Shown one piece after another: positions 27,938 to 62,925 of a DNA stretch of 64,000 nt. The notes beneath the pieces were generated by a model that saw nothing but the letters and a program-made list of their open reading frames with translations, did no database searches and had not been told where the DNA came from. Origin of the DNA: Oceanimonas pelagia (lineage in GTDB: Bacteria; Pseudomonadota; Gammaproteobacteria; Enterobacterales; Aeromonadaceae). Positions within the stretch are counted from its first letter, which is position 1. Every line of letters begins with the position of its first letter. The stretch covers positions 1,038,001 to 1,102,000 of the forward strand of contig NZ_CP118224.1 of NCBI RefSeq assembly GCF_030849025.1, in the 5' to 3' direction. The position numbers and the translations under genes were made by a program.

Positions 27938-27949
27938 GATCGTCGCTCC

Positions 27950-29359
27950 TTATGAAAACAGCACTTCGTTGAACTCTTCTTCCTGCTCGTCGGTCTGCAG
28001 GTCGGCCAGTGACCAGTCGTAACCGTCGATCAGTGCTTTTTCGCGGTTGGCCTGGTATTGCGGCACTTCAATTTCATGAATGCCGTCGTATCCCGGCCAG
28101 TAACCGGCGGCTCGCCAGCGCAGAATGCTGGTCAGCCCCAGGTCGCGCAGAGCAAGACCCCGGGCGCGGTCTTCGTCCTTGTAGTGGTACACACCCACCA
28201 GCACCGGCTTGAACGCCTCCTGGCCCAGCGGCGCGTCCTTCTGGATAGCGATGAACACGAAGCCCGGCTTGATGCCGGTAACGGACTCGTAGCCCTCGCT
28301 GTAGTGGGCGTCCTGAATGTGGTAGTTGTGCTTGCTGCCGTCCCGGGCAAAGCCGGCGGGTGAAGCGTCCAGCACGAACTTGGCGTCTACCAGCACATGG
28401 TCGGGGGTGGCCCAGTCGGGCCGGCATTTCAGCAGCTCACCGGTTTTGTGGTGCCGCCAGTAAATGCTCTGCTCGGCCACACCCTCTTCCAGCAGCATGG
28501 CGGCCTCGGGCTCGGCCAGCACCGCCTCGCGGATCCGCTGAACGTGGATCCATTCGTCTTGGCTGAGGATTTCCTTGCCTTCGTGGTGGGCCTTGAACTC
28601 GGCCACGATTTCATCCACGAACTGGACGCTTTCGTCTACCGAGCGGATCCGCTCAATCAGGTCGGCCTTGCTGCCACCCATGCTCAGGGGCTCGGGGTAT
28701 TGCTTCCACTCTTCCACCTGGGCGGCGTGTTCGCTGCTGCAGGCGGCGTAGCTTTCCAGCAGGGTGGCGTAGCTGCCCTTGGCCTTGAGCGGCTTGGGCA
28801 GGGTGTCGTTGTGGGCCTTGATGCAGGCCTTGAGCCGGGTGAGGGTGCGCTTTTCATCTTCGCCGATCTTCTGGTGCTCGGCGGGCAGCTTGCTGTAGCT
28901 GGCCTCGGCTTCTTCCAGGTTGCCGGCGGGCAGGGGGGCGGCCAGGCCCTCGTTATAAGCCTCGATGGCGGTGATGAGGTCGGCGGCGTCCGGCTTTTGC
29001 GGCAGGCCGGCGTTGTATTGCTCAATCCAGCCTTTCAACTCGTCGGCACTGCTCAGGGCACCTTCGGGCATGGCTGGCATCACGGCGTATTCAGTGTGGA
29101 AGTCGTCGAACTCCAGCAGCGCCTTGTGCAGGATTTTGCCCTCACGGAAAGCGGCAGTTTCTTTCTGCTCGTTGCCGTCCACCTTGTAATACTGGTAAAC
29201 CCGGCCATTGGTGAGGGCGTGGTCGATATGGCCCTTGCTGATGCCGGGGCCGCGCTGGTAGTCGTCGTTGCTGATGCCCTGATAAATGCCGGGCTTGATC
29301 TGCTCGGCGTTGAATACAAAGCCCTGGGCGGGCTCAACGGTGCGGGTGATCTGGTCCAT
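27950..29359 (-). CDS. recE: RecE-like exonuclease (exodeoxyribonuclease VIII)
   Basis: A 469-aa PD-(D/E)XK nuclease. The C-terminal catalytic part shows WATPDHVLVDAKFVLDA, containing the D and DxK motif, and a following HYSEGYESVTGIKPGF strand. The N-terminal half has GISKGHIDHALTNGRVYQYY and REGKILHKALLEFDDFH, matching phage exonucleases. It should digest linear duplex DNA 5' to 3' and hand the strand to RecT. E. coli RecE is longer (866 aa), but phage versions of this size are common. The start ATG 29359 follows AGAGGACCAA. Confidence 0.9.
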   Translation of the reverse strand: MDQITRTVEPAQGFVFNAEQIKPGIYQGISNDDYQRGPGISKGHIDHALTNGRVYQYYKVDGNEQKETAAFREGKILHKALLEFDDFHTEYAVMPAMPEGALSSADELKGWIEQYNAGLPQKPDAADLITAIEAYNEGLAAPLPAGNLEEAEASYSKLPAEHQKIGEDEKRTLTRLKACIKAHNDTLPKPLKAKGSYATLLESYAACSSEHAAQVEEWKQYPEPLSMGGSKADLIERIRSVDESVQFVDEIVAEFKAHHEGKEILSQDEWIHVQRIREAVLAEPEAAMLLEEGVAEQSIYWRHHKTGELLKCRPDWATPDHVLVDAKFVLDASPAGFARDGSKHNYHIQDAHYSEGYESVTGIKPGFVFIAIQKDAPLGQEAFKPVLVGVYHYKDEDRARGLALRDLGLTSILRWRAAGYWPGYDGIHEIEVPQYQANREKALIDGYDWSLADLQTDEQEEEFNEVLFS

Positions 29360-40092: not shown

Positions 40093-40158
40093 AATTAATG
40101 GACAGGCCTTCTGTGGGGAATGAGGTCATGCCGCAAGAGGGGTGAGGGAGGGGTAGTG

Positions 40159-41034
40159 GTGACGCACGTGGTGAGTTTTTCTGGAGGTCGAACCAGCGCC
40201 TATCTGGTCCACCTGATGGAGCAGAAGCGCAGGGATGAAGGGTGGGACGTGCATTATGTCTTCATGGACACGGGCGCCGAACACCCCCTGACCTACCGCT
40301 TTGTGCGCGAGGTGGTGAAGTTCTGGGATATTCCGCTGACCGTGCTGCGCGTGAAAATCAACCCGCAGCTGGGCCAGGGCAACGGCTACGAGGTGTTCAG
40401 TCCCGCCGACATACAGACCCACAGAATGCCGGCGCTGACGCCGTTTATGGATGTGGTGAGGAAGTACGGCACGCCGTATATCGGAGGTGAGTTTTGCACA
40501 GACCGAATGAAGCTGCAGCCCTTCAAGAAGTGGTGCGACGACACTTTCGGGAAGGGCAATTACACCACCTGGATCGGCATTCGGGCCGACGAACCGCGCC
40601 GACTAAAGGAGAGGGTGGGTATCCGTTACCTGGCTGAGCTGTCCGACTTCGACAAGCAGGATGTGCTCGACTGGTGGAAAGATCAGCCCTTTGACCTACT
40701 GATACCCGGGCACCTGGGCAACTGCATTTTCTGCATCAAGAAGAGCACCCAGAAAGTAGGTCTCGCCACCCTCGACGAACCGGGCGCAATGCGTGTTTTC
40801 AACCACGACGTCATCAACAGCAAGGAGACCCGAGACGGGCACCGGGCCACACCAAAGCAGGTGATGTACCGGGGCCACCTGTCGCTGGAGGGGATAGCGA
40901 AAATGCACAGTGACATGGAATACCAACGGCTTTATGCCGACATGTTGGCGGCCAAACGCTACGACACCGGCAGCTGTTCCGAGAGCTGCGAGATTTTCAA
41001 CGGTGAGCCGCAGTATGAGCTGGAATTTGCGTGA
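40159..41034 (+). CDS. PP-loop/PAPS-reductase-like protein
   Basis: About 291 aa. The N-terminal SFSGGRTSAYLVHLM is the PP-loop that binds ATP in PAPS reductase and related adenylating enzymes. Three cysteine clusters (GEFCTDRMK, GNCIFCIKKS, GSCSESCEI) suggest an Fe-S or zinc site. Phage PAPS-reductase-like proteins are common, but their substrates are not known; sulfur or adenylation chemistry on DNA or RNA is possible. GTG 40159 (or 40156) is chosen because GGGAGGGG stands a few bases upstream; the longer ATG 40120 frame lacks one. Confidence 0.75.
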   Translation: MTHVVSFSGGRTSAYLVHLMEQKRRDEGWDVHYVFMDTGAEHPLTYRFVREVVKFWDIPLTVLRVKINPQLGQGNGYEVFSPADIQTHRMPALTPFMDVVRKYGTPYIGGEFCTDRMKLQPFKKWCDDTFGKGNYTTWIGIRADEPRRLKERVGIRYLAELSDFDKQDVLDWWKDQPFDLLIPGHLGNCIFCIKKSTQKVGLATLDEPGAMRVFNHDVINSKETRDGHRATPKQVMYRGHLSLEGIAKMHSDMEYQRLYADMLAAKRYDTGSCSESCEIFNGEPQYELEFA

Positions 41035-43134: not shown

Positions 43135-43983
43135 ATGCAACAACCAGGGGTGATCACCTACAACCTCAAGGAGCGCGGCCGCAAGTATCGCGGTCAGGAG
43201 CGCAGCTTTAACATTCCCGCCCTGGTGGCGTCCATCAACGGCCCGGCCACCCAGGAGCGGGTCGAAACCCGGGGCATGCTGGGGTATCTGGGTCACTGGC
43301 CGCGGATCCGCTTCGGCATGGAGCCGCCCGAGGGTGGGCTGTTCGGCGGCAAGGCCCATTCGGTGGAGCCCGCCGTGGTGACCGTCTACCTCAAGGCGCA
43401 CCCGAACGGGGACGTGGAGCACAGAACCGAATTCCTCGACACCGAGCCCGGCGCCATTGCTGCCCGCATGTACGCCAATCGGGTGGGCGGCTTCAGCTCT
43501 GCCATTGATCCGGTCGATAACGAGCTGTACGGCTTCGACTGGGTGAATGACCCCAACTACTCCACCAACCGGCCTTATCAGCTGGCACTGGACAGTGCGG
43601 CCGACGGCGGCATGAGCTTCCTTGACGTGCTGATGGCCGAGCAGCAGGAGCGACTGGCCAGCCAGACCGCCCTGATGGAGGTGATGGAGAGGCAAATGGC
43701 ATTGGCACTGGATTCCGCCGCCCGCCTCGAGCAGGACAACAATGAGCTGCTGGAGATCCTGGCCCGTGCCAATCATCAGGCTGGCGATTCACTGGCGGCC
43801 GCCGTGCTGGACTCCGCCGCCGGCAAGCGCGCGCAGAGCGAGGCGGAGCGCATCGAGCGTGAGCGCCTCATGTTCCTCGATTCCACCCTGCCGGCCTTTA
43901 TCAACCCCGAACGCAAGCCAGAAGACAAGCAGGCAGAGCGGGAGTACCTGGCCCTGACCAGTCAGGTGATCCGCCATGTTTGA
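43135..43983 (+). CDS. Virion-associated protein with repeated LDSAA motifs
   Basis: 282 aa. The N-terminal ~120 residues (MQQPGVITYNLKERGRKYRG) are beta-rich, the rest is helical and charged. ALDSAADGG (151), ALDSAARLE (181) and VLDSAAGKR (214) repeat one peptide, and FLDSTLP (247) is a fourth variant. The codons differ at each site, so the protein sequence is what is conserved. Such spacing suggests processing by a prohead protease. A scaffold or internal head protein is my preferred reading. No protease motif is visible. Confidence 0.65.
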   Translation: MQQPGVITYNLKERGRKYRGQERSFNIPALVASINGPATQERVETRGMLGYLGHWPRIRFGMEPPEGGLFGGKAHSVEPAVVTVYLKAHPNGDVEHRTEFLDTEPGAIAARMYANRVGGFSSAIDPVDNELYGFDWVNDPNYSTNRPYQLALDSAADGGMSFLDVLMAEQQERLASQTALMEVMERQMALALDSAARLEQDNNELLEILARANHQAGDSLAAAVLDSAAGKRAQSEAERIERERLMFLDSTLPAFINPERKPEDKQAEREYLALTSQVIRHV

Positions 43984-44701
43984 ACCCGTCAAGGCCGGTC
44001 TGGGCGGCTTTATGCAGGACTTTTATCTGGGGCTGGTGCCGACCACCAGGCCACTGACCGAGTTCACCGCCCGGGGCTTTGCTCAGTGCGTGGCCTGGGC
44101 CCCTGGGCGCATGGTGGACAAGGCGGAGGACATGCTGGGTGCCTGGATGAAGAACGACAGCGCGCAGGCGCCAACCCGGCCACCCAAACTGCCGGTTATT
44201 CTGGTGGGCGTGGCCAACGACTACACCCCCATTGCCGGCAACATGGGCACTCAGATAGCGGATGCCATCGACGTGCAGTTGCCGGGTGACGACAAGTGCC
44301 GGTTCTTCCAAATGCGCATGGTGGCCGGCGAGGTGCGGGCCCAGGTGGCAATCTTTGCCCACGACGAGCCCACGGCCAAGAGCCTGGCGGCCCAGTTCCT
44401 GCTGTTCCTGTCCTCCCCCAGCCGGCGCGGCTTTGATGCTGTGTTCCCTTACGCTGGGGTGGATAACGCCTTCCCGGTGCAGATAGAGGCGCCGGACAAC
44501 CCGGCCATGAGCATCGAAACCGGCACCAAAAACCTGAAGGTGCTGGCCATCGACCTGACCCTGATCTGCTCCATTCCGCTGTTCAGTGCGCCGGGTGAGG
44601 GTGAAGCGAACGATGGCAAGGGCATTCCGGGCACTGCGGATCCTGCCGGATTCCCGCTGGTGGCGGATGTAGATATCACTGCCAGGGAGGTGGAGTCATG
44701 A
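43976..44701 (+). CDS. Putative virion structural protein
   Basis: 241 aa. PVKAGLGGFMQDFYLGLVPT, then LPVILVGVANDYTPIAGNMG and QFLLFLSSPSRRGFDAVFPY suggest a compact structural domain. It overlaps the previous gene by 8 bp and the next by 4. A neck or connector-type protein fits the location between scaffold-like and capsid genes. Not recognised further. Confidence 0.6.
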   Translation: MFEPVKAGLGGFMQDFYLGLVPTTRPLTEFTARGFAQCVAWAPGRMVDKAEDMLGAWMKNDSAQAPTRPPKLPVILVGVANDYTPIAGNMGTQIADAIDVQLPGDDKCRFFQMRMVAGEVRAQVAIFAHDEPTAKSLAAQFLLFLSSPSRRGFDAVFPYAGVDNAFPVQIEAPDNPAMSIETGTKNLKVLAIDLTLICSIPLFSAPGEGEANDGKGIPGTADPAGFPLVADVDITAREVES

Positions 44702-45183
44702 TCAAGATGCAGGCCAATATCAGCGGCTTTCACGGTAAGCCGGTGACCCTGCTGGGCGCCCTGGATGAAAGCACCGGCATTCTGGTGGTGGCCAAGTCGG
44801 TGGCACAGATCCCCCGGGTGGATGGCTGTGTGCTGATTTCTTCCGATCGCCGCGGGGACCGGGACGCCACCTTTAGCGATGAGCATATCCACGAAGCAAT
44901 CACCGCCTATTTCAAGCTCAAGGGCGAGGTAGCCGAAGACGGCAAGACTTCCCTGCTGCGCTTCGGGGAGCTGGCGGCCATGGCCGATCCAAGCTCGGTG
45001 ATCGAGAAAGACGGTGTGGACGTGAACGGCCCCCGCTACCGGATTGCGCCGGACGCATCGAACGCGCACGTTGCGGCCCTGGCCATGTGCCGCTATGCGT
45101 CGTTTACCGGCGCCATTGGTGATGTGATGGACATGATGGACGAGCTTTCCGCGCTGCTGGGCGGTGAGGTGGTGACGCTGTGA
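44698..45183 (+). CDS. Hypothetical virion-region protein
   Basis: 161 aa (MIKMQANISGFHGKPVTLLG). Mixed alpha/beta with acidic patches. It overlaps both neighbours by 4 bp. It may be a head-completion protein by position; there is no sequence support. Confidence 0.6.
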   Translation: MIKMQANISGFHGKPVTLLGALDESTGILVVAKSVAQIPRVDGCVLISSDRRGDRDATFSDEHIHEAITAYFKLKGEVAEDGKTSLLRFGELAAMADPSSVIEKDGVDVNGPRYRIAPDASNAHVAALAMCRYASFTGAIGDVMDMMDELSALLGGEVVTL

Positions 45184-45518
45184 GCCTGGACAATAACACG
45201 CAGGCCGCCCGGGTGTTCTGGCGCCTGGTGCAGGACTTTGTGGCCAATGTGAAGCCGTGGGATCCGGCCATCTATTACGACGTCAAGCCGGACGAGCGCT
45301 GGGATGCCACTCTGATATCCCAGCGGGTGTATGGTCGCCGTGACGAGTTTATGGCGGTGCTGGCGGCGGCCGGGGTGGACTCGGTGGATCTGCCCATTGA
45401 ACAGCGGCGCATTGTGCTGCCAACGGACCCGCAGCTTCGCCAGCTCAAGTTTCAGGCCGGCTTTGAGTCCCGGCAGCAGTACCGCAACGGTAACGGGCCT
45501 AGCTGGAGGGTGAACTGA
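45180..45518 (+). CDS. Hypothetical virion-region protein
   Basis: 112 aa from GTG 45180 (GTGA overlap with the previous stop). It has Tyr/Trp-rich segments (AARVFWRLVQDFVANVKPWD). Together with its neighbours it forms a tightly packed operon of structural-type genes. Unknown. Confidence 0.6.
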   Translation: MSLDNNTQAARVFWRLVQDFVANVKPWDPAIYYDVKPDERWDATLISQRVYGRRDEFMAVLAAAGVDSVDLPIEQRRIVLPTDPQLRQLKFQAGFESRQQYRNGNGPSWRVN

Positions 45519-46561
45519 TGGCCGAGGATATCGGTAGCCTCAAGGGGATATCGGCGGAGGTTCGCCAGCTGGTTCGGGCGGATGCCCAGCGCCGCCGGGA
45601 GGCAAAGAACATCCTGAGCCCGAAAGGGCTGCAGGGCAATTACGATGCCGGCGAGCTGCTGCATACCACCCTGGGGGGCGAGATTCGACCGCTGACGTCG
45701 GATGACCTGGCCGCATTCCGGCAGAATGCCCGCTCCCTGGGTCGCCGGTTCAAGGGGGGTATTACGCCGCGCCAGGTGATCGACATGTCGCTGGCGGTGG
45801 ACCGCAAAAAGGCCCGGCAGGAAATCACCGTGGCGGTGCCGGCATCAGCCAGAACTGTGCGCGGCGCCGGCCGCTCTGCCGATTCGCTGGAGGTACGCTT
45901 TGTCACCAACGCCAGCAAGAAGCACGGCACCTATCGCCATTTCGTGACCGTGCAGTTCCTTGGCTACCCCACAGCCATCGCGTCCGGCGCGCTGACGCCG
46001 GCCAAGGCTGCCAGTCAGATGCGCAAGGAGGGGATCCGCTTCGACTGCGACTGTGGCCGCCACACTTACTGGTATCGTTACATCGCCACCGTGGGCAACT
46101 ACAACGCCGGCCGGGCGGAGAACGGTTACCCCAAGATCCGCAACCCCAACCTGGCCGGCGTGGCCTGCAAGCATGTGTTGCGGGTAATGGCTGAGGTGGA
46201 AGGCTCCAGTGTGGTACAGAACTTCCTGGAGCGGGCCATTGCCAAGGGCCGCGAGCGGATGGATGGCACCAGCACCATTCGCACCAGCGACAAAGCGGCA
46301 TCGAAAATCATTCAAAAGCAGGCTCTGCGACCCACCACCCACGGCGGCAGAACGGGCGATCGGGATTATGACCGGGCGCGACGGGCGTTAAGGCAGCAAA
46401 GCCGGGCCACCACCACCCGACCCACCAAGGTGGCATCGGGCAGCAAGCGGGTTTCTGCGCTGGCCGGCGATCCAAAGGCAGAGGCGGCCCTGATGGGGGT
46501 CGTTCAGCAGCTAGGCATCAGCCGTGAGCAGGCCATTGCCATTCTTCAGGGAGTCAAATAA
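45518..46561 (+). CDS. SWIM-type zinc-finger protein in the virion operon
   Basis: 347 aa. IRFDCDCGRHTYWYRYIATV and then NPNLAGVACKHVLRVMAEVE give CxC...CxH, the SWIM zinc-finger signature. The C-terminal third is basic (DYDRARRALRQQSRATTTRP) with a last helical motif (QQLGISREQAIAILQG). SWIM domains occur in recombination- and transposase-associated proteins and are not expected among head genes. A DNA-associated virion protein is possible. TGATG overlap at the start. Confidence 0.7.
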   Translation: MAEDIGSLKGISAEVRQLVRADAQRRREAKNILSPKGLQGNYDAGELLHTTLGGEIRPLTSDDLAAFRQNARSLGRRFKGGITPRQVIDMSLAVDRKKARQEITVAVPASARTVRGAGRSADSLEVRFVTNASKKHGTYRHFVTVQFLGYPTAIASGALTPAKAASQMRKEGIRFDCDCGRHTYWYRYIATVGNYNAGRAENGYPKIRNPNLAGVACKHVLRVMAEVEGSSVVQNFLERAIAKGRERMDGTSTIRTSDKAASKIIQKQALRPTTHGGRTGDRDYDRARRALRQQSRATTTRPTKVASGSKRVSALAGDPKAEAALMGVVQQLGISREQAIAILQGVK

Positions 46562-47076
46562 TGCTGACCAACGTACCCGCGGGCATCAACAGTGTGGCCC
46601 GCAATGTGATTATCAATCACCCCAACACCTTCAACTGCGAGGTGTACCGGCGCACCGTACAGCGCACCGGGCCGGAAGAGGGTGGCATGCCCACCCTGGG
46701 CGGCATGATGGTGCTGACCGTGGAGGACGAGGAGAATATCGGCTGGGAGCTGGTGGGGCTGGGCTTTGCCCTGTCCGCCGAGGCATTCCTGCCGTCTTCC
46801 ATGGTGGACCGGCGCGATGCGTCCTATGGCGGGCTTGATGAATTCCGCTTCCTGGTGGAGCCCGAGCACAAGCTGGGCGACCCCGGCGGCTTTGAGGTCA
46901 AGAAGAACGACGTGATTTACCTGATCGTTGGCCAGGGTGACACCGCCGCCAAGATTGCCCATGAAATTGTGGACGTGGAATCTACCGTTAACGTGCCGCC
47001 GTTCGTGCCCCGCTTTGTTACCAACCGCCGCGCCGATCTCGATTTGATGCCCGGCGACCCGGGTATCGAACCCTGA
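46561..47076 (+). CDS. Putative virion structural protein
   Basis: 171 aa (MLTNVPAGINSVARNVIINH). Beta-rich with acidic loops. Located immediately upstream of the terminator that precedes the capsid gene. Could be a decoration or head-closure protein, by position only. Confidence 0.6.
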   Translation: MLTNVPAGINSVARNVIINHPNTFNCEVYRRTVQRTGPEEGGMPTLGGMMVLTVEDEENIGWELVGLGFALSAEAFLPSSMVDRRDASYGGLDEFRFLVEPEHKLGDPGGFEVKKNDVIYLIVGQGDTAAKIAHEIVDVESTVNVPPFVPRFVTNRRADLDLMPGDPGIEP

Positions 47077-47097
47077 CCACCTGACAACCGCAATGCA

Positions 47098-47120
47098 GCC
47101 GGCCCAGTGCCGGCTTTTTT
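47098..47120 (+). terminator. Rho-independent terminator before the major capsid gene
   Basis: GCCGGC-CCAGT-GCCGGC followed by TTTTTT. It lies 22 bp after the previous stop and 110 bp before the capsid gene, so the capsid gene probably has its own promoter in the gap, although I cannot point to clear -35/-10 boxes. Confidence 0.8.
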
Positions 47121-47229
47121 GTGCCAGCCCAAACCGGAAAAGTCGGCGATGGGCGCTTCTCGCTGCCGGCAAACTGTGCCTACCCGTCCGATTGGTCGGC
47201 ATAACCCTATCCAACAATGGAGATTTACA

Positions 47230-48903
47230 ATGGCTAAAAAAACCAGCCACGTCCGCCGGGAAACTCAGGAAGCGGCCACTTTTGTGGATGCCCTGCGCGG
47301 TGAGGCCACCAAGGGCGGCGTTTTTGACAGCGCTGCTGCCAAGGATTTTATCGACAACTCCACCAGTCAGGCCACCTCTGCCCCGGTGCCCAAGGCGCTG
47401 CAACAGGTGTTCGACAGTGCCGACGACAAGGAAATCAGCAAGATTTCCCGCGCCATCATCGATGGTGCCAATGCCTATGAGCGCATGCACGGCAATCAGG
47501 CGCCCGGCGACCTGCTGGAGCAAGCCATGCACCTGGCTGCCTCCACCACGCCGGACGCGCACCGCAAGGTACTGGATAGCATTGCCACCTCCGACGCTCA
47601 CGCCGCGACTTCACTGCAGCCGAACCGGGCCGTGGTGGCCATTCTCACCACCCTGAGCGAAGCCATTCCGTTTGCCCACTACCTGCCGGCCGACATTCAG
47701 TCGAACGAGGCCAAGCTGGCCATCATGGTGCACAAGGCGGGCAGCGATTACGGCGCCTACGACAAGGGTGGCCTGATGGATGGCGTCAGCTCCGGCGGTC
47801 GCTATATCAGCACCAGCCGCGAGCATCAGTGCGTGATTGAAGAGACCACCGGCACCCCCACCGGCAACATCACCGGCAAGATCACCGCCGTACAGGACAC
47901 CGACAACACCTGTGACCCGGCTGCCGCCTCTGTGCCGCTGCTGAAAGGGCGCGCCATTGTCTATGTCAACGGCTTGGTGTCCGCCGCCGAGTCCCCCCAG
48001 AACCCCGGCAATATCGGCGGCAAGGTGGAGATCGCCGGCACTACCCACAACCTGAGCGGTACCATTGACAACGCCACCGGTGCCATTGCCCTGGTTGCCA
48101 ACCCGCCCATTCCCCTGGGTACCGAAGTGGTGGTGGAAGCCTTTATCGATTACGAGCAGGACGACAAGCTGACTCCGCGCGTGATCACCGAGGTGGAAAC
48201 TTTCACCCTGTTTGCCAACCCCTACCGCGTGATCACCGCACAGTCCATCGACAGCCGCACCCAGATGACCAACGAACTGGGGCTGGATCCGTACTCTGAA
48301 GGCGTTATCGCCATTCAGGGCCAGTTTGCCAACGAGCGTCATTACGAGGTGCTGCGCAAGGCCAAGCGTATGTCGGTGCGCAACCAGGCCACCTTTGATT
48401 TCAAATGGGCCAACCGCGGCGATATGCGCTCCCGCTCCGATGTGTGGCGCGATCTGTCTGCCGTGCTGGGCAAGTTGAGCCAGCAGATGGCCAACGACAC
48501 CATGAACCACGGCATCACCCACCTGTACGTGAAGGACTTTATTGCCGCCCAGATGGTGGGCCTGCCCGCCGATATCTGGCAGCCCTCCGGTGTGTGGGAG
48601 CGCCCCGGCATCTACCGCCTGGGCCGCCTGTTCGGCAAGTACGACGTCTACTACTCGCCCAAGGTGGTCGAGGAGCAGGCTGACGGCAGCTCCGGCGAAA
48701 TCCTGTGTGTCGGCCAGGCAACTGACGTGACCCGCAACCCCTTCGTGCTGGGTGACGCCGTGGCGCCCATGGTGGTGCCGCTGTCCGTGAACAGCGACCT
48801 GAAGCAGGGTGCGGCCTTCTATGCCCGCAACTTCACCAGCGTGAACCCGCACAAGCCGTCCGCTCTGGCCTGTGCGCGGATCAACGTCATCAACATGATC
48901 TAA
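47230..48903 (+). CDS. Major capsid protein (putative), with N-terminal pro-region
   Basis: 557 aa. The N-terminal ~120 residues are charged and contain VFDSA (31-35), VFDSA (59-63) and VLDSI (113-117), resembling repeated protease sites of a pro-region. The body shows capsid-like features: LMDGVSSGGRYISTSREHQC, VITEVETFTLFANPYRVITA, GLPADIWQPSGVWERPG and SDLKQGAAFYARNFTSVNP. Strong GC-rich coding bias, its own operon and its position before the sheath support the call. The ATG is preceded by TGGAGATTTACA. Confidence 0.75.
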   Translation: MAKKTSHVRRETQEAATFVDALRGEATKGGVFDSAAAKDFIDNSTSQATSAPVPKALQQVFDSADDKEISKISRAIIDGANAYERMHGNQAPGDLLEQAMHLAASTTPDAHRKVLDSIATSDAHAATSLQPNRAVVAILTTLSEAIPFAHYLPADIQSNEAKLAIMVHKAGSDYGAYDKGGLMDGVSSGGRYISTSREHQCVIEETTGTPTGNITGKITAVQDTDNTCDPAAASVPLLKGRAIVYVNGLVSAAESPQNPGNIGGKVEIAGTTHNLSGTIDNATGAIALVANPPIPLGTEVVVEAFIDYEQDDKLTPRVITEVETFTLFANPYRVITAQSIDSRTQMTNELGLDPYSEGVIAIQGQFANERHYEVLRKAKRMSVRNQATFDFKWANRGDMRSRSDVWRDLSAVLGKLSQQMANDTMNHGITHLYVKDFIAAQMVGLPADIWQPSGVWERPGIYRLGRLFGKYDVYYSPKVVEEQADGSSGEILCVGQATDVTRNPFVLGDAVAPMVVPLSVNSDLKQGAAFYARNFTSVNPHKPSALACARINVINMI

Positions 48904-48915
48904 CCGGAGGCGCCG

Positions 48916-49386
48916 ATGAGCAAAGTTCTGATTATCGGCGCCGCCCCCGCTGTGGGGGCGAGCGCCATGGCTGAGCTGGTAAAGCAGCTTGAAGGGGAGT
49001 TCCAGTCCGGTGTCTTGCTGGAAGTGACCAGCTTTGCGCCCTTCAACCTGAGCCTGCCGGAAATCGGCTTGATGTGCCGGCCTTATGCCGTTGAGCGCGT
49101 CATTCTGCGAGATCTTCAGGCGCTGCACAGCGCCATGCACAGCGCCATGCAGATAGCTCAGCTGAACAAGGTGGAGCGGCTGGTATCCGTGCGCGTGCTG
49201 TCTGGCGAAGCGGATCAGGCCGACGAGGGCCCGGCCGAACAGGGTGGCCAGGCGGATGACGATGCCGCCAAAGGTGACGACGCCCAGGGGGGTGAAGAGC
49301 CCGAGCAGGCGGAGGGGCAGGCTGAGCAGGGTGGCCAGGCCGCAAAACCCAAGTCCGCCACCGGCAGCCGCGGCAAAGCCAAGTAA
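48916..49386 (+). CDS. Virion-region protein with acidic Ala/Gln/Glu-rich tail
   Basis: 156 aa. A short N-terminal domain (MSKVLIIGAAPAVGASAMAE) is followed by a low-complexity tail (EGPAEQGGQADDDAAKGDDA). The 12-bp unit CAGCGCCATGCA is duplicated in tandem at 49127-49150 (HSAMHSAM). ATG 48916 follows GGAGGCGCC. A linker or decoration role is possible, but nothing proves it. Confidence 0.6.
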   Translation: MSKVLIIGAAPAVGASAMAELVKQLEGEFQSGVLLEVTSFAPFNLSLPEIGLMCRPYAVERVILRDLQALHSAMHSAMQIAQLNKVERLVSVRVLSGEADQADEGPAEQGGQADDDAAKGDDAQGGEEPEQAEGQAEQGGQAAKPKSATGSRGKAK

Positions 49387-49406
49387 CTTCATAAAAGGGG
49401 AATGCG

Positions 49407-51053
49407 ATGTTTTCACCATTCAAGCGGCAGTTAGGCTCAGAGTCAGGTGTGCAGCTTAACCCGTTGCGCGATAACTCCGAGCTGCCTGCCGGCAGTAACT
49501 CCGATCAGGTGTTTGCCATTGCCATGCGCGCCACCCGTGGCCGCATCGATAAGGCGTTTATGGTCACCCGGGGTAACGTCAAGGCGCGCCTGGGCAAGGG
49601 CGAGTCCACCCGGGTTAACGCATTGAACGAGGCCTGGGTGCAGACCGTGGAGGCGCTGCAAAAGGGCGCTTATGCGGCCGTGGTCAGCCGTCTGCACACC
49701 AGCGAAGCCGCGCTCAGCTGGATTGTGGTCAAGGAAACGCTGGACGTGGGCGAGGTGCCCACCGGCAATTACACCTTTGAAGTGTCGGCCACCGAGCCGG
49801 TTGCGCCCTACCTGTTTGCCATCAAGCACCTGGAGTGCTTTAACGACGGCATCAAGGTGAGCTTCCATGCCGATGAAAACCGGGTGGGCGGCGTCAATCA
49901 GGGCAACAGCATGGTAACCCTGCGTCTGCTCGACAAGGACGACGAAAAGCTGGCGGAATACACCGGTTCACTGCTACCCGGCGATATCGACGATAACGGC
50001 AACTCCAAGTACCTGCCGGACGTGATCGCCAACCGTACCGACACCCTGGAAGTGCTGGTGGGCGCCACTACCGAGATTGCCCCCACTTCTTCCGCCTACG
50101 GCTACGATGGCGTTACCCCCAAGTGGGCGAGCTCCGATGTGCTGATCTACTTCACTGAGGGGTCAACCACCTATGCAGTGGAGGATGCCCAGCGCGCTGC
50201 CAGTCAGCTGGAGAAAACCCAGTACGACTACGGCTACATTGCCTCTGGCGGCACCAAGTCTGCACCGCTGATGGATGCGCTGCTTGGCCTGATGCACCGG
50301 GTTAACCGCCAGTTCCGCTTTGATGTACCGGGCGATCTGGACCCCGAGGCGGCTGTGGCCTGGGTGGAGCAGATGAACGTGAGCGGACGCGATAGCGCCC
50401 ACCTGGCCCATGCCTTCTGGGCCCCGCTCAAGTGCAACGATCCCACCGGCATTAACCCGCGTTTCCACCTGGGCACCGCGACCCTGAACATTGCCAAGGC
50501 CTGCGCGCGTAATGCTCAGACCAACGCCAAGGGTTTCGCGCCGAAGAACTACCCGGTGGCCGGCCGGGACTGGCCGGTTGATCGCTCCGGCATCATCCAG
50601 ACCTACACCCCGGATGACCCGGAAATGAACCTGCTGGCCCGGGCCAAAATCAACCCGGTGATCTACTCGGTATACAGCGGTGGCGGTCGCTATGTGTGGT
50701 TCGACTCGCTCACCTGCGCCCCGGTAGACAACAGCCTGCGCAAGCTGATCTCGGTAGCGGATATGTCCAGCTCCATTGACGACGCGGTGACCCGCTTCGC
50801 CAAGGATGCTCTGCAAAAGCCGATGAAGGTGGCGGTCAAGATGACCACTGACTTTCTGCAGACCTTGTTTGAGGGTGCCGAGGCTTCCGACTGGATCGTA
50901 CCTTCCGCCGATCCCGAAATGGGCGGCGCAGCCTTCCGCTTTGTGGTGGCGCCCAACGAGGCCAGCCCTTACGACCGCATGGACGTGAGCTACTGGCTGC
51001 GCTACGACGGCACCAACCGTCAGACCTTTGTCACCCAGACCCTGAGCCGCTAA
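49407..51053 (+). CDS. Tail sheath protein
   Basis: 548 aa. The length and layout match contractile tail sheaths: an N-terminal linker (MFSPFKRQLGSESGVQLNPL), an inserted domain with VTLRLLDKDDEKLAEYTG, and a conserved C-terminal half (YDYGYIASGGTKSAPLMDAL, INPVIYSVYSGGGRYVWFDS, ISVADMSSSIDDAVTRFAKD). It polymerises round the tail tube and contracts during injection. This makes the phage a myovirus. ATG 49407 follows AAAAGGGG. Confidence 0.8.
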   Translation: MFSPFKRQLGSESGVQLNPLRDNSELPAGSNSDQVFAIAMRATRGRIDKAFMVTRGNVKARLGKGESTRVNALNEAWVQTVEALQKGAYAAVVSRLHTSEAALSWIVVKETLDVGEVPTGNYTFEVSATEPVAPYLFAIKHLECFNDGIKVSFHADENRVGGVNQGNSMVTLRLLDKDDEKLAEYTGSLLPGDIDDNGNSKYLPDVIANRTDTLEVLVGATTEIAPTSSAYGYDGVTPKWASSDVLIYFTEGSTTYAVEDAQRAASQLEKTQYDYGYIASGGTKSAPLMDALLGLMHRVNRQFRFDVPGDLDPEAAVAWVEQMNVSGRDSAHLAHAFWAPLKCNDPTGINPRFHLGTATLNIAKACARNAQTNAKGFAPKNYPVAGRDWPVDRSGIIQTYTPDDPEMNLLARAKINPVIYSVYSGGGRYVWFDSLTCAPVDNSLRKLISVADMSSSIDDAVTRFAKDALQKPMKVAVKMTTDFLQTLFEGAEASDWIVPSADPEMGGAAFRFVVAPNEASPYDRMDVSYWLRYDGTNRQTFVTQTLSR

Positions 51054-51063
51054 GGAGCGATAG

Positions 51064-51744
51064 ATGCTGAATGACCTGATGCGGGGCCACCTGTATGGCT
51101 CCATGGAGCAGGAAGAAATGGAGCGGCGCCGGCGCGCCGCCCTCGACAGCGCCCGGGAAGGCGCTTTCGACTCCGCTTCAAAATTCGAAATGATGGCGAC
51201 CCGCATGGATGCAGTGGCTGCCATTCAGGAGTGGGCTGACGAGCTCGACCTCGATGACGGCGAATCGGCCAGTGACCGCCTGTTGGCGTTGATGGTCGGC
51301 ATTGCCGACAGCAACCAGGACGGCGAGCTGGACGAAGACGAGCAAGAGGTGGTGTTTTCTGCCATGGAGGCGGCCTGGGATTACCTGTCCGGTCTGGGCG
51401 TGGATGATCAGGATCTCGACCTGCTGCTGAATGAGTGGGACGCCGATGCCGCCGAGCGGGTGCGCGAGCTGGTTTCCTCTGCGCTGAGCGAGTCCGATGA
51501 CGACATGGACGGCTTTGTGTTCGGGCCTGAGGCGCAAGAGGCCATTTTCGACGCCACCTACCGCAAGAAGATTGCGGTGCGCGGTGGCAAGAAGGTGCGC
51601 ATCAACAAGCGCGTTTCCGGCAATGTGCGCCTGTCCGGCAAGCAGAAGCTGGCGATTCGCAAGGCTCAGATGAAGGCCCGCTCCGCCGGCGCCAAGGTGC
51701 GGCGCATGAAGTCGATGCGGGTGCGTCAGAAGCTCGGGCTGTAA
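51064..51744 (+). CDS. Virion protein with EF-hand loop and basic tail
   Basis: 226 aa. RRRAALDSAREGAFDSASKF holds two of the candidate processing motifs (26-30 and 34-38). Residues 82-93 (DSNQDGELDEDE) fit the EF-hand calcium loop exactly: D1, N3, D5, G6, L8, D9, E12. The C-terminal ~70 residues are Arg/Lys-rich (GGKKVRINKRVSGNVRLSGK). A calcium-binding, DNA-contacting head or neck protein is plausible. A terminator follows. Confidence 0.7.
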   Translation: MLNDLMRGHLYGSMEQEEMERRRRAALDSAREGAFDSASKFEMMATRMDAVAAIQEWADELDLDDGESASDRLLALMVGIADSNQDGELDEDEQEVVFSAMEAAWDYLSGLGVDDQDLDLLLNEWDADAAERVRELVSSALSESDDDMDGFVFGPEAQEAIFDATYRKKIAVRGGKKVRINKRVSGNVRLSGKQKLAIRKAQMKARSAGAKVRRMKSMRVRQKLGL

Positions 51745-57911: not shown

Positions 57912-58391
57912 ATGTCCAAAAATATCCTGTTCCCCTTCACTGCCATGAGCAGCAACGATCCTGCGATGAAGGAGGTGGCCCGCCACTTCAAGAAGGCCGG
58001 TGCCAATGTGGTGCAGGCAGAGGTGAATCCGGCCATTCGTCGCACCAGCGGCATTGCCTACCGTGAAATCCACCTGTCTTTCACCGACAGCCAGATCGTT
58101 ACTCTGCGCATCAAGGAAACCGGTGATATCTATCAGGTGCTGCTCAACAAGAAGGTGGTCCCCATTCGCGATCAGGATGACCACAGCGCCGCCATCAAGG
58201 AGGTTGCCAAGCTGATGGAGCGAGGGCGCGCCGCATTTCAGCGCAAGCTTGCTAAGGTCAGAGTGGCACTGCCGTCCAGCGTGAAGACGGCGGCACCCAA
58301 GATGGAGGCGCTACTGGTGCAGCGGCGCGATAGCCTGGCTGCCGAGATTGCGGCCATTGATAGCGAGCTGGAAGCGCTGGCGGCTGGCTGA
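57912..58391 (+). CDS. Phage protein near the polyvalent genes, unknown
   Basis: 159 aa (MSKNILFPFTAMSSNDPAMK). A compact alpha/beta domain (HLSFTDSQIVTLRIKETGDI) precedes a coiled-coil C-terminus. It lies between the spike gene and the PAAR gene and could be linked to the anti-restriction-type proteins further right. I cannot name it. Confidence 0.6.
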   Translation: MSKNILFPFTAMSSNDPAMKEVARHFKKAGANVVQAEVNPAIRRTSGIAYREIHLSFTDSQIVTLRIKETGDIYQVLLNKKVVPIRDQDDHSAAIKEVAKLMERGRAAFQRKLAKVRVALPSSVKTAAPKMEALLVQRRDSLAAEIAAIDSELEALAAG

Positions 58392-59265: not shown

Positions 59266-62200
59266 ATGAACCTAGCCTGGAACGAGCAGGGCTCCCCCAT
59301 TGGTGTATCCATCGATCAGCTGCTGTACCGCATCCGATCGGATGACGGCCGCGAGGGGCTGATTTTCGACAGCGTAACCCTGAATGACATTCTGAGCGAA
59401 GACGGCGTGGAGCAGTTTGTCTTTGACGCCATGGTGACCCCCTTTTCTCGCCTGCGCCGCAAAATGGAGCAGATGCTCAAGGTGATGAACCGCGCCGTTG
59501 AGGGGCTGGACGTCACCGCTATGCAGGTGTCCGATCCGTTCCGCCGCAACGGTGTCGCCCAGGTGGCGGCCGTGTTTGAGCTGAGCGATGGTCAGACCGT
59601 GACCGTGTATTTCCACAACCCCGACAGCACCCCGAACAAGCTCACCCCCACCGATGAGATGGTGTCCTGGAAGTGGATGCTCAACAAGAAGGACATCACC
59701 ATAGTGGTGGCGCCCGAGAAGGGCAGGGATCTGGCTGTGCGGGAGGTGTCGCGCCGCATTATGCGCCTGGCCGAGCGCAACAGTCAGGCATTTGCCCGGC
59801 AGAACGCCCGGCGCGCCGAGCGCCTGGAGCGCATTCAGGGCCTGAAGGACGAGATTGGCGAGCTGGAGCAGACCCTGGAGCAAAAGCAGCGGGATCTGGA
59901 GCTGGCCCGGGTTGAGGCCGAGAGTCGCGCACTGGCCCAAAAGGAGCTGTCCGCAGAAGAGGGCATGACCGCGCTGAACGGCATCAAGCGGTTCCTGAGC
60001 CGGGCCCAGTATCGCACCATTGCCGCCGCCATGAAGGGCGAAGAGAAGCAGTTCTTTATCGATAAAGCCCGGCTGCTGGCTGACATTATCAACGGCATGG
60101 CCGAAACCTACGAGCAGGATGGCAAGGGCATGGATGCGACCGCCTACCTGCATTACTTCAAGGGTGGCGCTGACTGGTACATCACCGAAAAGGACAGCCA
60201 GGGCGGCACTCAGCAGGCCTTTGGTTGGGCCAATCTGGGTCATGGCGGCGAGCTGGGCTACATCAGCATTGACGAACTCACCCAGAACAACGCCGAGCTG
60301 GATCTGCACTTTGACCCGCAGCCGCTGAACGGCGTGGTGGAAGATCAGGAAAGCGAGCCGGCAGCCGATAGTGGCAATAGCGCCGACAACGCCCCCATGA
60401 ATGCCGCAATCGCCATGGTGGAAACCGTGATCGGGGAATTTGACGGCAGCCTGTCGGGCTGGGAGCGGGACGAGTCATTCTCCGGCGGCGCCTGGTCCTT
60501 CACCAACCTGACATTTGGTGGCGTAACGGTGCGCGCCGGTGTGTCCTATGGCGGCGTGGTGTCGCTGGATGGCAAGCCCCACGACCCGGAAGGCCGGGTG
60601 ATCGACAGCGCCGACAGCCTGCGCGCCGCCATTGTGGCCATGCTGCCCAAGGACGAAGAGCAACAGCAGACCTGGAACGCCAGCACCGAAAGCGTGCGCG
60701 AACTGGACGACGAGCAGTTTGCTGCCGCCCTGGCCGAACTGGAAGCCGATAACCTGCGTAGCGAAGCCGTGCTGTTGCTGGCCCGTCGCAAAGGCACCGA
60801 CGAGCAGATTGCCGAAGCCGAGCAGATTTTGCAGGAATACAACGACGCCGGCCATGCCTCTGCCGAGCTGATTGCCCGCCGTGATGCCCTGCGTAACGCC
60901 ATTGAGCAGGGTGTGAGCGAGCCTGAGTCAGCCTCTGAAGATCTGCAGCCAGAGGGCGCGGAAAGCGTAGTCAAAACCGCCAAAGGCTCCGAAGTGATCA
61001 CCGGCTTTTCTGTGGTGGAAGCCGCCGCCCTGATCGCCTCCCATGATGCCGATGGCAACCCCAACCCGGCGTACCCGCAAGAGCTGCAACCCCGCGACCG
61101 CAGCCGCACCTCTTCCGTTGCCTGGGTGAAGAAGACCGCCAACCAGCTTGACCCCGACAGCCTGGGTAAAACCCGCCGGGCCGACTCTGGTGCGCCGATT
61201 GTGGGCCCCGATCTGGTGGTGGAGTCCGGCAACGGTCGCACCATGGCCATTCAGGAGGCTTACCGCACCGGTAAGGCCGAGGAATATCGCCAGTGGCTAC
61301 AGGAAGAGGCGGAGTTTTACGGCCTGAATGCGGGCAAGGTGGCCGCCATGAAAGCGCCCGTGCTGGTTCGTATCCGCACCAGCGCCATTGATCGCCGCCA
61401 GTTTGCCATTGAGGCCAATCAGGACGACAAGCTGGCCATGACCGGCACCGAAAAAGCCAAGGCCGATGCCGACCGCCTGGACAGCAACCTGATGGCTCGC
61501 CTGAGTGATGACGGCAACCTGTTGTCGGCCGCTAACCGTGACTTTGTGGCCGGCTTTCTGGCCTCGCTGGGTGAGTCCGAGTCGGCGCAGTACGTTACCA
61601 CCAACGGCCAGCCTACCGGCGCGCTGATCGCCCGCATTCAGGCCGCCATTTTTGCCAAGGCATACAGTGATGATCGCCTACTGGAGTTGTCCGCCGACGC
61701 CAGCAAGCCGGAGGTAGCCAATATCATCGAGGCACTGAACGTGGCTGCCCCCGAGTTCATTCTGGCCCGCTCTGCCGATGAGGCTGGTGCCGAGGCGCTG
61801 AGCGGCCGGCTGGTGGACAGCGTGGAAGCATCCATGAATGAGCAGGCGGTAGAGGCCATCATTCAGGCTGCCAACCTGGTGCGCAAGGCCAAGAGTGAAG
61901 GGGCCAGCGTAGAGGAAACCGTTAATCAGTTGGGTCTGTTTGGCGATGTGCCGCCGGCCACTGCCGCCATGGCGTTGTTCATTAACCGCAATAACCGCAG
62001 CGCCAAGCGCCTGGGTGTGGCATTCAAGGCCATGGCCGAGTTTGTGCGCCAGGAAGCCGAGCGCGGCCAGACCGTGGATATGTTCGGTGACGCAACGGAG
62101 GTGACCTTGCAGGAAATTATTGACGCCGCCAACCGCAAACTGGAGCAGGAATACGGCGAGGGCGCGTTTGCCATTGAATCACTGGATCTGTTTGCGCAAT

Positions 62201-62925
62201 CCCAGCCAGAGAGCGACCCCGAGCAGGCCCTGCAGAAAGCCCGCGAGCAGACCGACACCGATCCCACCGATAGGCAAAAGGAGAATGGTGATTACCAGAA
62301 GGGCGAGCTGAGCGCCTTTAGCCTGGAACTGGTCATTGAAAACCCCAAGGGGCACGTTCGTTCCGGCAAGAGCGAAAACGGCGATGAGTGGTCCGTCAGC
62401 ATGGCCCACGATTACGGCTACATCAAAGGCACCAAAGGGCTGGACGGCGACGAGGTGGACGCCTTTATCGGCCCCAATCTCGAAAGCGAAAAGGCGTTTG
62501 TGATCGAGCAGGTTGACCCCTCCGGCAAGCTGGACGAGCACAAGGTCATGCTGGGCTTTGATGATGAAGAAAGCGCCAAGCAGGGCTACCTATCCAGCTA
62601 CAAGGCTGGCTGGGATGGCCTGGGCTCCATCCGTGAAATGAGCCTGGAAGAGCTGAAAGCCTGGCTGCCGAATGCTGACCAGTCAACCAACGATGAATCA
62701 TCAGTCAACCAAGAGGGTGAGCCCAGCCCGGCCGAGGCCGACACCGCTTTCCTGCAATCGGTTATCGACGGCGCCGTACCCGACATGCTGGCCCCCGAGC
62801 TGGGCGACGAGATCGCCGCCGTGCTGGAGCGCCATGCCGACAATCCCGACATGGAAGCCCTGCTGGAGCAGGCCGTAATGGCCTACCAGACCGCCATGCT
62901 GAACGCCACCGCCAATATTGAGTAA
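59266..62925 (+). CDS. Polyvalent protein: DarA-like N-terminus, DUF2958-like, DdrB-type ParB-like and InPase-like domains
   Basis: 1219 aa. Residues 1-165 (FVFDAMVTPFSRLRRKMEQM, then VYFHNPDSTPNKLTP) resemble the DarA N-terminal domain of P1; 170-230 is a coiled coil; 290-356 (YLHYFKGGADWYITEKDS, then FGWANLGHGGELGYISIDEL) matches DUF2958; 575-840 (ELQPRDRSRTSSVAWVKKTA, then VVESGNGRTMAIQEAYRTGK) fits the DdrB-type ParB-like domain; 1022-1135 (DEVDAFIGPNLES) fits the phage inorganic-pyrophosphatase-type domain. P1 Dar proteins are packaged in the head and protect injected DNA from type I restriction. One VIDSA (~446) recalls the head-protein motif. Confidence 0.8.
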   Translation: MNLAWNEQGSPIGVSIDQLLYRIRSDDGREGLIFDSVTLNDILSEDGVEQFVFDAMVTPFSRLRRKMEQMLKVMNRAVEGLDVTAMQVSDPFRRNGVAQVAAVFELSDGQTVTVYFHNPDSTPNKLTPTDEMVSWKWMLNKKDITIVVAPEKGRDLAVREVSRRIMRLAERNSQAFARQNARRAERLERIQGLKDEIGELEQTLEQKQRDLELARVEAESRALAQKELSAEEGMTALNGIKRFLSRAQYRTIAAAMKGEEKQFFIDKARLLADIINGMAETYEQDGKGMDATAYLHYFKGGADWYITEKDSQGGTQQAFGWANLGHGGELGYISIDELTQNNAELDLHFDPQPLNGVVEDQESEPAADSGNSADNAPMNAAIAMVETVIGEFDGSLSGWERDESFSGGAWSFTNLTFGGVTVRAGVSYGGVVSLDGKPHDPEGRVIDSADSLRAAIVAMLPKDEEQQQTWNASTESVRELDDEQFAAALAELEADNLRSEAVLLLARRKGTDEQIAEAEQILQEYNDAGHASAELIARRDALRNAIEQGVSEPESASEDLQPEGAESVVKTAKGSEVITGFSVVEAAALIASHDADGNPNPAYPQELQPRDRSRTSSVAWVKKTANQLDPDSLGKTRRADSGAPIVGPDLVVESGNGRTMAIQEAYRTGKAEEYRQWLQEEAEFYGLNAGKVAAMKAPVLVRIRTSAIDRRQFAIEANQDDKLAMTGTEKAKADADRLDSNLMARLSDDGNLLSAANRDFVAGFLASLGESESAQYVTTNGQPTGALIARIQAAIFAKAYSDDRLLELSADASKPEVANIIEALNVAAPEFILARSADEAGAEALSGRLVDSVEASMNEQAVEAIIQAANLVRKAKSEGASVEETVNQLGLFGDVPPATAAMALFINRNNRSAKRLGVAFKAMAEFVRQEAERGQTVDMFGDATEVTLQEIIDAANRKLEQEYGEGAFAIESLDLFAQSQPESDPEQALQKAREQTDTDPTDRQKENGDYQKGELSAFSLELVIENPKGHVRSGKSENGDEWSVSMAHDYGYIKGTKGLDGDEVDAFIGPNLESEKAFVIEQVDPSGKLDEHKVMLGFDDEESAKQGYLSSYKAGWDGLGSIREMSLEELKAWLPNADQSTNDESSVNQEGEPSPAEADTAFLQSVIDGAVPDMLAPELGDEIAAVLERHADNPDMEALLEQAVMAYQTAMLNATANIE

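Follow-up and report, generated by a model that had tools for sequence, protein, structure and literature searches.

The stretch of Oceanimonas pelagia DNA considered here (the window: contig NZ_CP118224.1, positions 1,038,001 to 1,102,000, 64,000 nucleotides in all) contains a P1-like phage, in which a short motif, Leu or Phe followed by Asp-Ser-Ala, recurs in three proteins of the head region. The best explanation, which we consider very probable, is that the motif is recognized by a prohead protease that the phage itself encodes (Pro, at 43135) and that would cut after the aspartate in four substrates: Pro itself, the major capsid protein, a gp21-type protein and a DarA-type protein. A reading of the motif as a processing site had been proposed in an initial annotation of this DNA. 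It is supported by the enrichment of the motif, homology to P1, conservation in relatives, placement in a propeptide and at domain junctions, a predicted protease fold, and a Glu/Asp split that the proteins share. The features involved are listed below; coordinates are positions within the window, and capsid residues are counted from the ATG at 47230.

43135-43983, plus strand: homologue of P1 Pro, predicted prohead protease (tblastn, hhalign, AlphaFold2 model)
43588-43599, plus strand: predicted self-cleavage site ALD153-SAAD at the boundary of catalytic domain and tail (conserved column)
43708-43719, plus strand: Pro-tail motif ALD193-SAAR
43807-43818, plus strand: Pro-tail motif VLD226-SAAG (sequence)
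43876-43887, plus strand: Pro-tail motif FLD249-STLP, L at 248 (sequence)
47230-48903, plus strand: homologue of P1 gp23, major capsid protein precursor, 557 amino acids (tblastn, hhalign)
47230-47577, plus strand: predicted capsid propeptide, residues 1-116
47323-47334, plus strand: propeptide motif FD33-SA (sequence)
47410-47421, plus strand: propeptide motif FD62-SA (sequence)
47572-47583, plus strand: predicted capsid maturation site VLD116-S117
51064-51744, plus strand: homologue of P1 gp21 with N-terminal arm, acidic helical domain and basic C-terminal tail (hmmsearch, hhalign, phrog_1053)
51142-51177, plus strand: arm motifs ALD28-SA and AFD36-SA
51547-51558, plus strand: junction motif IFD163-ATYRK
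51553-51744, plus strand: basic C-terminal tail, residues 164-226
59266-62925, plus strand: protein with DarA N-terminal, ddrB-like ParB and inorganic pyrophosphatase domains (Pfam DarA_N, ddrB-ParB, InPase; phrog_1926)
59365-59376, plus strand: upstream motif IFD35-SV of the DarA-type protein (sequence)
59422-59433, plus strand: predicted processing site VFD54-A55 of the DarA-type protein

Occurrence of the motif in the window

Motifs were counted in 30 phage genes that we chose between 37186 and 63999: those at 43135-43983, 47230-48903 and 51064-51744 (the trio, 1066 amino acids together) and 27 others (7127 amino acids). A count against random expectation, suggested in the initial annotation, gave seven [LF]DSA in the trio (three in Pro, two in the capsid protein and two in the gp21-type protein) where 0.08 would be expected, and none in the other 27 genes (0.33 expected). 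Shuffling within each protein of the trio produced at most two copies, and seven were reached in none of 2000 shuffles. The permuted motifs SDA, ADS and DAS are absent from the trio. The looser motif [LFM]DS has nine copies in the trio (0.75 expected) and, among the 27 others, four (3.88 expected), of which WFDSLTC is in the tail sheath. The codons vary among copies (CTG GAC AGT GCG, CTG GAT TCC GCC and TTT GAC AGC GCT, among others), as had been noted earlier.

Most individual copies were already listed in the initial annotation. The three LDSAA and the FLDST of Pro are present, with the leucines of the former at residues 152, 192 and 225 and not at the 151, 181 and 214 given. Two VFDSA and one VLDSI were correctly placed within the first 120 residues of the capsid protein (the F of FDSA at 32 and 61, the L of LDSI at 115), as were ALDSA and AFDSA near the N-terminus of the 51064 product (LDSA at 27, FDSA at 35). 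The stated absence of the motif from the sheath holds for [LF]DSA and fails for [LFM]DS. The three carriers that were named are indeed enriched; a fourth, the DarA-type protein at 59266 with its IFDS (F34) and VFDA (F53), was overlooked, as was FDATYRK at residue 162 of the 51064 product. A search for a protease gene to the right of these genes had been suggested; the predicted protease is the first of them, 43135. An even spread through non-head proteins without conservation in homologues, which had been named as the pattern that would speak against processing, was not what we found: the trio is enriched and the motif is conserved in relatives.

The predicted capsid propeptide, the Pro homologue and their relatives

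Relatives were taken from IMG/VR (the best 80 of 111, 80 of 129 and 80 of 135 matches, 44 of 44, and the best 80 of 82, which gave 77 distinct loci), from five GTDB loci and from named phages. Observed and expected numbers of [LFM]DS were counted on 90% identity representatives. Papers are cited here from the passages searched.

The P1 capsid protein gp23 is cut between E120 and S121, as determined by Edman degradation (PMC9024508). The sequence at the cut is AMLE-SVAAEM, and in MAFFT alignments (of 51 representatives including P1 and D6, and of 61 representatives) the bond aligns with VLD116-SIAT of the window's capsid protein. That protein matches P1 gp23 with E = 4e-14 and is 51% identical to its Rb1 counterpart (tblastn); hhalign gave 99.7% against gp23 of P1 and D6. 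The aligned bond puts the mature start at S117, one residue from the position near 118 that had been predicted earlier. Among 57 representatives of the Asp type defined below, propeptide and site (7286 amino acids) hold 116 [LFM]DS and the core, which is 3.4 times longer (24673 amino acids), holds 8. The column of the site is PhiD (Phi, a hydrophobic residue) in 55 of the 57, and the other two have a shifted YDS. The protein has the form of a P1-type gp23 with an N-terminal propeptide of about 115-120 residues ending in PhiE/D-S, which would be removed. HK97 gp4/gp5 likewise involves an N-terminal capsid propeptide, proposed to be a scaffold in HK97. When 398 genomes of the phylum were searched for the capsid protein, the only one found was that of the window. 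In the capsid protein of Acinetobacter phage vB_AbaM_ABMM1 (L009, 6701-8479), FDD stands for LDS, with YYDSINES just ahead.

The product of 43135 has a catalytic domain at about residues 1-148, followed by a helical C-terminal tail that bears the motifs. It is 30% identical to P1 Pro (E = 2e-12) and 43% to a protein of Xanthomonas phage Rb1 annotated as prohead core protein protease (both by tblastn). An hhalign comparison with Pro of P1 and D6 gave a probability of 99.5 (E = 2.6e-23), the protein matches phrog_1801 (E = 1.6e-25), and the Oceanimonas genome has a single copy. Pfam returned nothing for nine of ten head-region proteins and no known prohead protease family. An NCBIfam search with Pro gave nothing meaningful and a PDB sequence search gave only three TRIM25 matches (best E = 0.088), so the fold was taken from an AlphaFold2 model (44 sequences; mean predicted local distance difference test score, pLDDT, 82.8; predicted template modelling score 0.52). 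The model has a confident domain to about residue 140, a segment at 150-157 with pLDDT below 50 that holds ALD153-SAAD, and long helices after it. With this model as query, ranks 1-3 of a Foldseek search of the PDB were the T4 gp21 protease (probability 0.99-1.00) and rank 4 was an unrelated trafficking protein (E = 0.081). Proteases of Kaposi's sarcoma-associated herpesvirus, human cytomegalovirus and herpes simplex virus 2 came next, as weak matches with E = 0.16 and above and probabilities up to 0.63. Of the 28 matches in BFVD with E up to 0.001, six are named prohead proteases. The model points to a T4 gp21-like prohead protease fold for Pro. Candidate catalytic residues are His54, found in 67 of 68 Pro representatives, and Ser121, found in all 68, both of which we infer to be catalytic; H96, also in 68 of 68, is another candidate. 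Since the protease is encoded by one of the motif carriers, the motif in Pro probably serves self-cleavage. P1 pro (NC_005856.1, 19014-20033) is named "tail fiber protein" in RefSeq, as are several related RefSeq records and likewise phrog_1801, names that run against a protease role.

In relatives the motif is concentrated in the capsid propeptide, the Pro tail and the gp21 junctions. The Pro family has 117 [LFM]DS against 9.7 expected (at least one in 50 of 52 representatives), the capsid family 108 against 16.2 (49 of 52), the gp21-type family 55 against 12.9 (38 of 50) and the DarA N-terminus 9 against 2.2 (8 of 17). The tail sheath (49407-51053, plus strand; phrog_1036, at the position of P1 gp22) served as a control and showed no enrichment, with 14 against 16.3 expected in 52 representatives. 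It was one of 14 other families tested. For the remaining 13, observed and expected counts were 3 and 9.3 for the PmgG-like family, 0 and 3.0 for the tube, 2 and 4.1 for TerS, 8 and 7.0 for the family of 43976, 6 and 7.0 for 44698, 5 and 5.6 for 45518, 2 and 7.1 for 52593, 8 and 6.8 for 56545, 1 and 3.3 for 57435, 6 and 3.0 for Hdf, 18 and 9.5 for TerL, 10 and 3.5 for 45180, and 15 and 4.0 for 46561. The excess in the last two families comes from a single, unrepeated column in each (GLDS in 45180, mostly VLDSxDE in 46561), and the 18 copies in TerL fall at several conserved places; none of the three was counted as carrying sites. The VLDSxDE column of the 46561-47076 family lies about 60 residues in (51 representatives), and the window's copy is without it.

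The Asp/Glu split and alternative readings

The residue before the predicted bond divides the relatives into two types. The consensus in the Asp clade is L/F/M, Asp, Ser or Ala, then mostly a small residue. Of the 68 Pro representatives, 13 have a tail with PhiES and are Glu-type; the other 55 are Asp-type, and the tail of 53 of these has PhiDS. The first tail site has Asp in 55 of 55 Asp-type and Glu in 13 of 13 Glu-type representatives, a result for the D153/E170 column that is partly circular because the clade labels were drawn from tail motifs. In the main DarA column all 29 Asp-type representatives have Asp and all 10 Glu-type ones have Glu; two Asp-type representatives (L009 and L141) depart at the upstream DarA site, as judged by eye. 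The five Glu-type gp21 representatives have PhiE or TE sites, L316 being without a clear C-terminal one. When Pro and gp23 were paired by record, 36 pairs were Asp/Asp, 10 were Glu/Glu (P1, D6, L375-L381 and L382) and two joined a Pro tail without PhiDS to an Asp capsid site, so that none of the 48 was discordant. A single branch (100/100) separates the two types in a tree of the Pro catalytic domain (67 rows). Read from these sequences, the split is one ancient switch carried through four proteins. At position P3, Met and Leu prevail at Glu-type sites and small residues (T/V/A/S) at most Asp-type sites; the Asp-type Pro tail is an exception, its most frequent residue there being Leu (26 of 93). 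The Pro columns that tell the clades apart include F120/W128 and S122/W130, beside the candidate serine; they distinguish the two clades as a whole and were not taken as setting specificity.

P1 has a homologous protease, capsid protein and DarA-type protein, its gp23 is cut at the aligned bond, and its sites have a hydrophobic P2 and Ser or Ala at P1', the residue after the bond, as in the window. It differs in having Glu before the bond, where the window phage has Asp, and in the distance of pro from the capsid gene, about 37 kb in P1 and about 3 kb here. The T4 gp21 protease, the closest match of the model, and the giant-phage proteases of phiKZ, 201phi2-1 and SPN3US (gp245) also act on several head substrates. 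Those of SPN3US, phiKZ, 201phi2-1 and T4 all cut C-terminal to Glu, and the SPN3US and phiKZ enzymes cleave off their own C-terminus (PMC5694885). From such Glu specificity the window phage appears to depart, with Asp at the capsid, first Pro and main DarA sites.

The motif could instead be a tag for docking or packaging into the head, comparable to a capsid targeting sequence. Its enrichment in head-associated proteins and the position of several copies near N-termini would fit such a tag, and the 30 N-terminal residues of P1 DarB are enough to target a protein to the capsid (PMC9024508). We nonetheless regard a tag without cleavage as unlikely, because the aligned motif in P1 gp23 is the sequenced cut, the DarA motif lies at the start of the visible density, and the motif is found at low-confidence junctions of the models and repeated in the protease's own tail; a combined role as tag and cut site is possible. 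Quite unlikely, in our estimate, is a real cut that falls after another residue or that a host protease makes, with Pro in some other role. In the P1 record a note describes pro as a putative kinase/phosphatase that probably activates a host protease, and the tail-fiber name in PHROGs and RefSeq points the same way; against this stand the T4 gp21 protease at the head of the fold search, the named viral prohead proteases in BFVD, the near invariance of His54 and Ser121, and the Ser that Edman sequencing places at P1' in phage P1.

The spacing of the three Pro LDSAA copies, 40 and 33 residues, might suggest functionless relics of shared descent or internal duplication. This we find very improbable, given that codons and flanks differ, that Pro proteins as little as 22% identical to the window's keep the motif or its Glu form, and that the cores of the same capsid proteins hold few copies. 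Chance, or composition bias in acidic, serine- and alanine-rich proteins, deserves almost no credence: the motif is short and its residues are common, but shuffles that keep composition never reached the seven copies observed, and the permuted motifs are missing from the trio.

Several observations nevertheless weigh against recognition and cutting of the motif by Pro. Cleavage and the scissile bond in the Asp clade are predicted from sequence, the cut being probably after Asp. Strict [LFM]DS is found in only 8 of 17 DarA-type and 38 of 50 gp21-type representatives, many of which have DA, and two of the 55 Asp-type Pro representatives have no PhiDS in the tail. The catalytic domain itself holds one or two PhiES in 7 of 13 Glu-type and one PhiDS in 8 of 55 Asp-type Pro proteins, indicating that the motif alone is insufficient for a cut. 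Of 55 representatives, 20 have Asp and 5 have Gly at P1' of the first Pro site; D193 lies within a predicted helix spanning residues 162-227; and the acidic domain of P1 gp21 contains one FDS. One Acinetobacter group has FDD at the capsid column and YYDS or YYDG eight residues earlier; in this group, that of vB_AbaM_ABMM1, the cut may be shifted by a few residues. The T4 gp21 matches of the Pro model have E values of 0.003-0.009 and template modelling scores of only 0.28 (query) and 0.45 (target). As the split is one branch of the Pro tree, the concordance of Pro and gp23 represents one evolutionary event, not 48.

If Pro does recognize the motif, it would be built into the prohead, would cut itself off its helical tail (at D153-S154 and the three tail sites), release the first 116 residues of the capsid protein by a cut at D116-S117, trim the DarA-type head protein at D54-A55, and divide the gp21-type protein in three: the arm, the acidic domain and the basic tail of 63 residues. 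With several sites in each propeptide, cutting would produce pieces small enough to exit the head, as proposed for SPN3US (PMC5694885). P1 has Glu for Asp at these sites; there the capsid cut has been shown and the others are predicted.

Head maturation in P1, a classic transducing phage, is understood only in part. The position of the gp23 cut dates from 2022; the DarA N-terminus yielded no clear signal on sequencing, and P1 had no identified scaffold (PMC9024508). From a single motif one can now predict the DarA bond E68-A69, that Pro cleaves itself and that gp21 is processed. With respect to the literature searched, four points are new: the motif common to these proteins, the branch with Asp, the bond in DarA and the proposal of gp21 as a substrate. 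Asp-cutting specificity was not met in the passages searched of the literature on phage prohead proteases, and an Asp-cutting branch of an otherwise Glu-cutting protease type, if true, would provide a natural pair for the study of residue choice.

The gp21-type and DarA-type proteins and neighboring genes

A protein search of the phage collection with the 51064 product matched only Rb1, so the link to P1 required profiles. The product matches P1 gp21 with E = 1.3e-26 (hmmsearch) and 99.5% (hhalign), both proteins belong to phrog_1053, and its position between the sheath and PmgG is that of P1 gene 21. P1 gp21 and phrog_1053 share its acidic middle and basic tail; in the window a stretch of 114 residues with a net charge of -32 precedes the 63-residue tail, which has a net charge of +23. 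PhiD[SA] occurs before the acidic domain in 52 of 60 representatives, and [LFM]D[AS] ahead of the basic tail in 54 of 60, two of the other six being truncated fragments. The junction motif falls in the segment of lowest model confidence, 159-165. In a Pseudomonas relative (L004, 19395-20126) the junction looks as though its site had undergone duplication, with an additional copy, FDSATMDATYRK. A PDB fold search with the gp21-type model gave nothing convincing (best E = 0.34). Pfam matches to EF-hand and DUF1611_N were sub-threshold, and an EF-hand is not claimed.

The P1 virion table lists 23 proteins, including both neighbors of gp21 (gp22 and PmgG); P1 gp21 itself is absent from it and is unmentioned in the main text of PMC9024508 and PMC12810830 as far as searched. 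The motif sites, the acidic and basic design, the absence from the virion table and the reported lack of an identified scaffold in P1 suggest that the gp21-type protein may be a head-core component, a role we put forward more tentatively than the rest. That role is opposed by a note in the P1 record, "baseplate or tail tube", and by the consideration that small basic peptides might escape detection in virions; PHROGs gives the function of phrog_1053 as unknown. We see the chances as evenly balanced for the fuller proposal that the gp21 family is the missing P1 head core (scaffold), cut by Pro at both ends, and that Pro exists in Glu-cutting and Asp-cutting classes.

In the 59266 product, Pfam DarA_N covers residues 51-173 (E = 1.6e-44), with the predicted processing site inside. 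The site lies in the column of LLE68-A69 of P1 DarA and of MFE-S of D6. P1 DarA loses its N-terminus: residues 1-69 have no density in cryo-electron microscopy, and the authors speculated on cleavage (PMC12810830). The motif predicts a cut at E68-A69 (LLE-AISS), which would make the first modelled residue the second of the mature chain. Neither this bond nor a common motif was found stated in the P1 literature searched, with many subscription papers outside its coverage. The DarA_N domain is shared with DarA, the defence against restriction protein; packaging in the head and protection of DNA from type I restriction, which characterize DarA, are putative here. The darA and ddrB genes are separate in P1, whereas their domains are joined in the protein at 59266-62925.

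P1 DdrB, DarB, Ulx, portal and Hdf hold 1, 2, 1, 1 and 0 [LFM]ES and no cluster, and they are therefore not claimed as substrates. Processing of DdrB is mentioned in PMC5512222, and the motif described here does not explain it. A portal gene that starts 1.4 kb past the right end of the window has no [LFM]D[SA]. Another protein with a Pfam DarA_N match is:

57912-58391, plus strand: Hdf homologue (phrog_1620, E = 2e-37; Pfam DarA_N)

A gene resembling phosphoadenosine phosphosulfate reductase (40120-41034) lies between the terminase and pro. At 26879-29359, on the minus strand (the structural genes are on the other), inspection by eye suggested a nuclease-like gene and a recombination protein resembling RecT.

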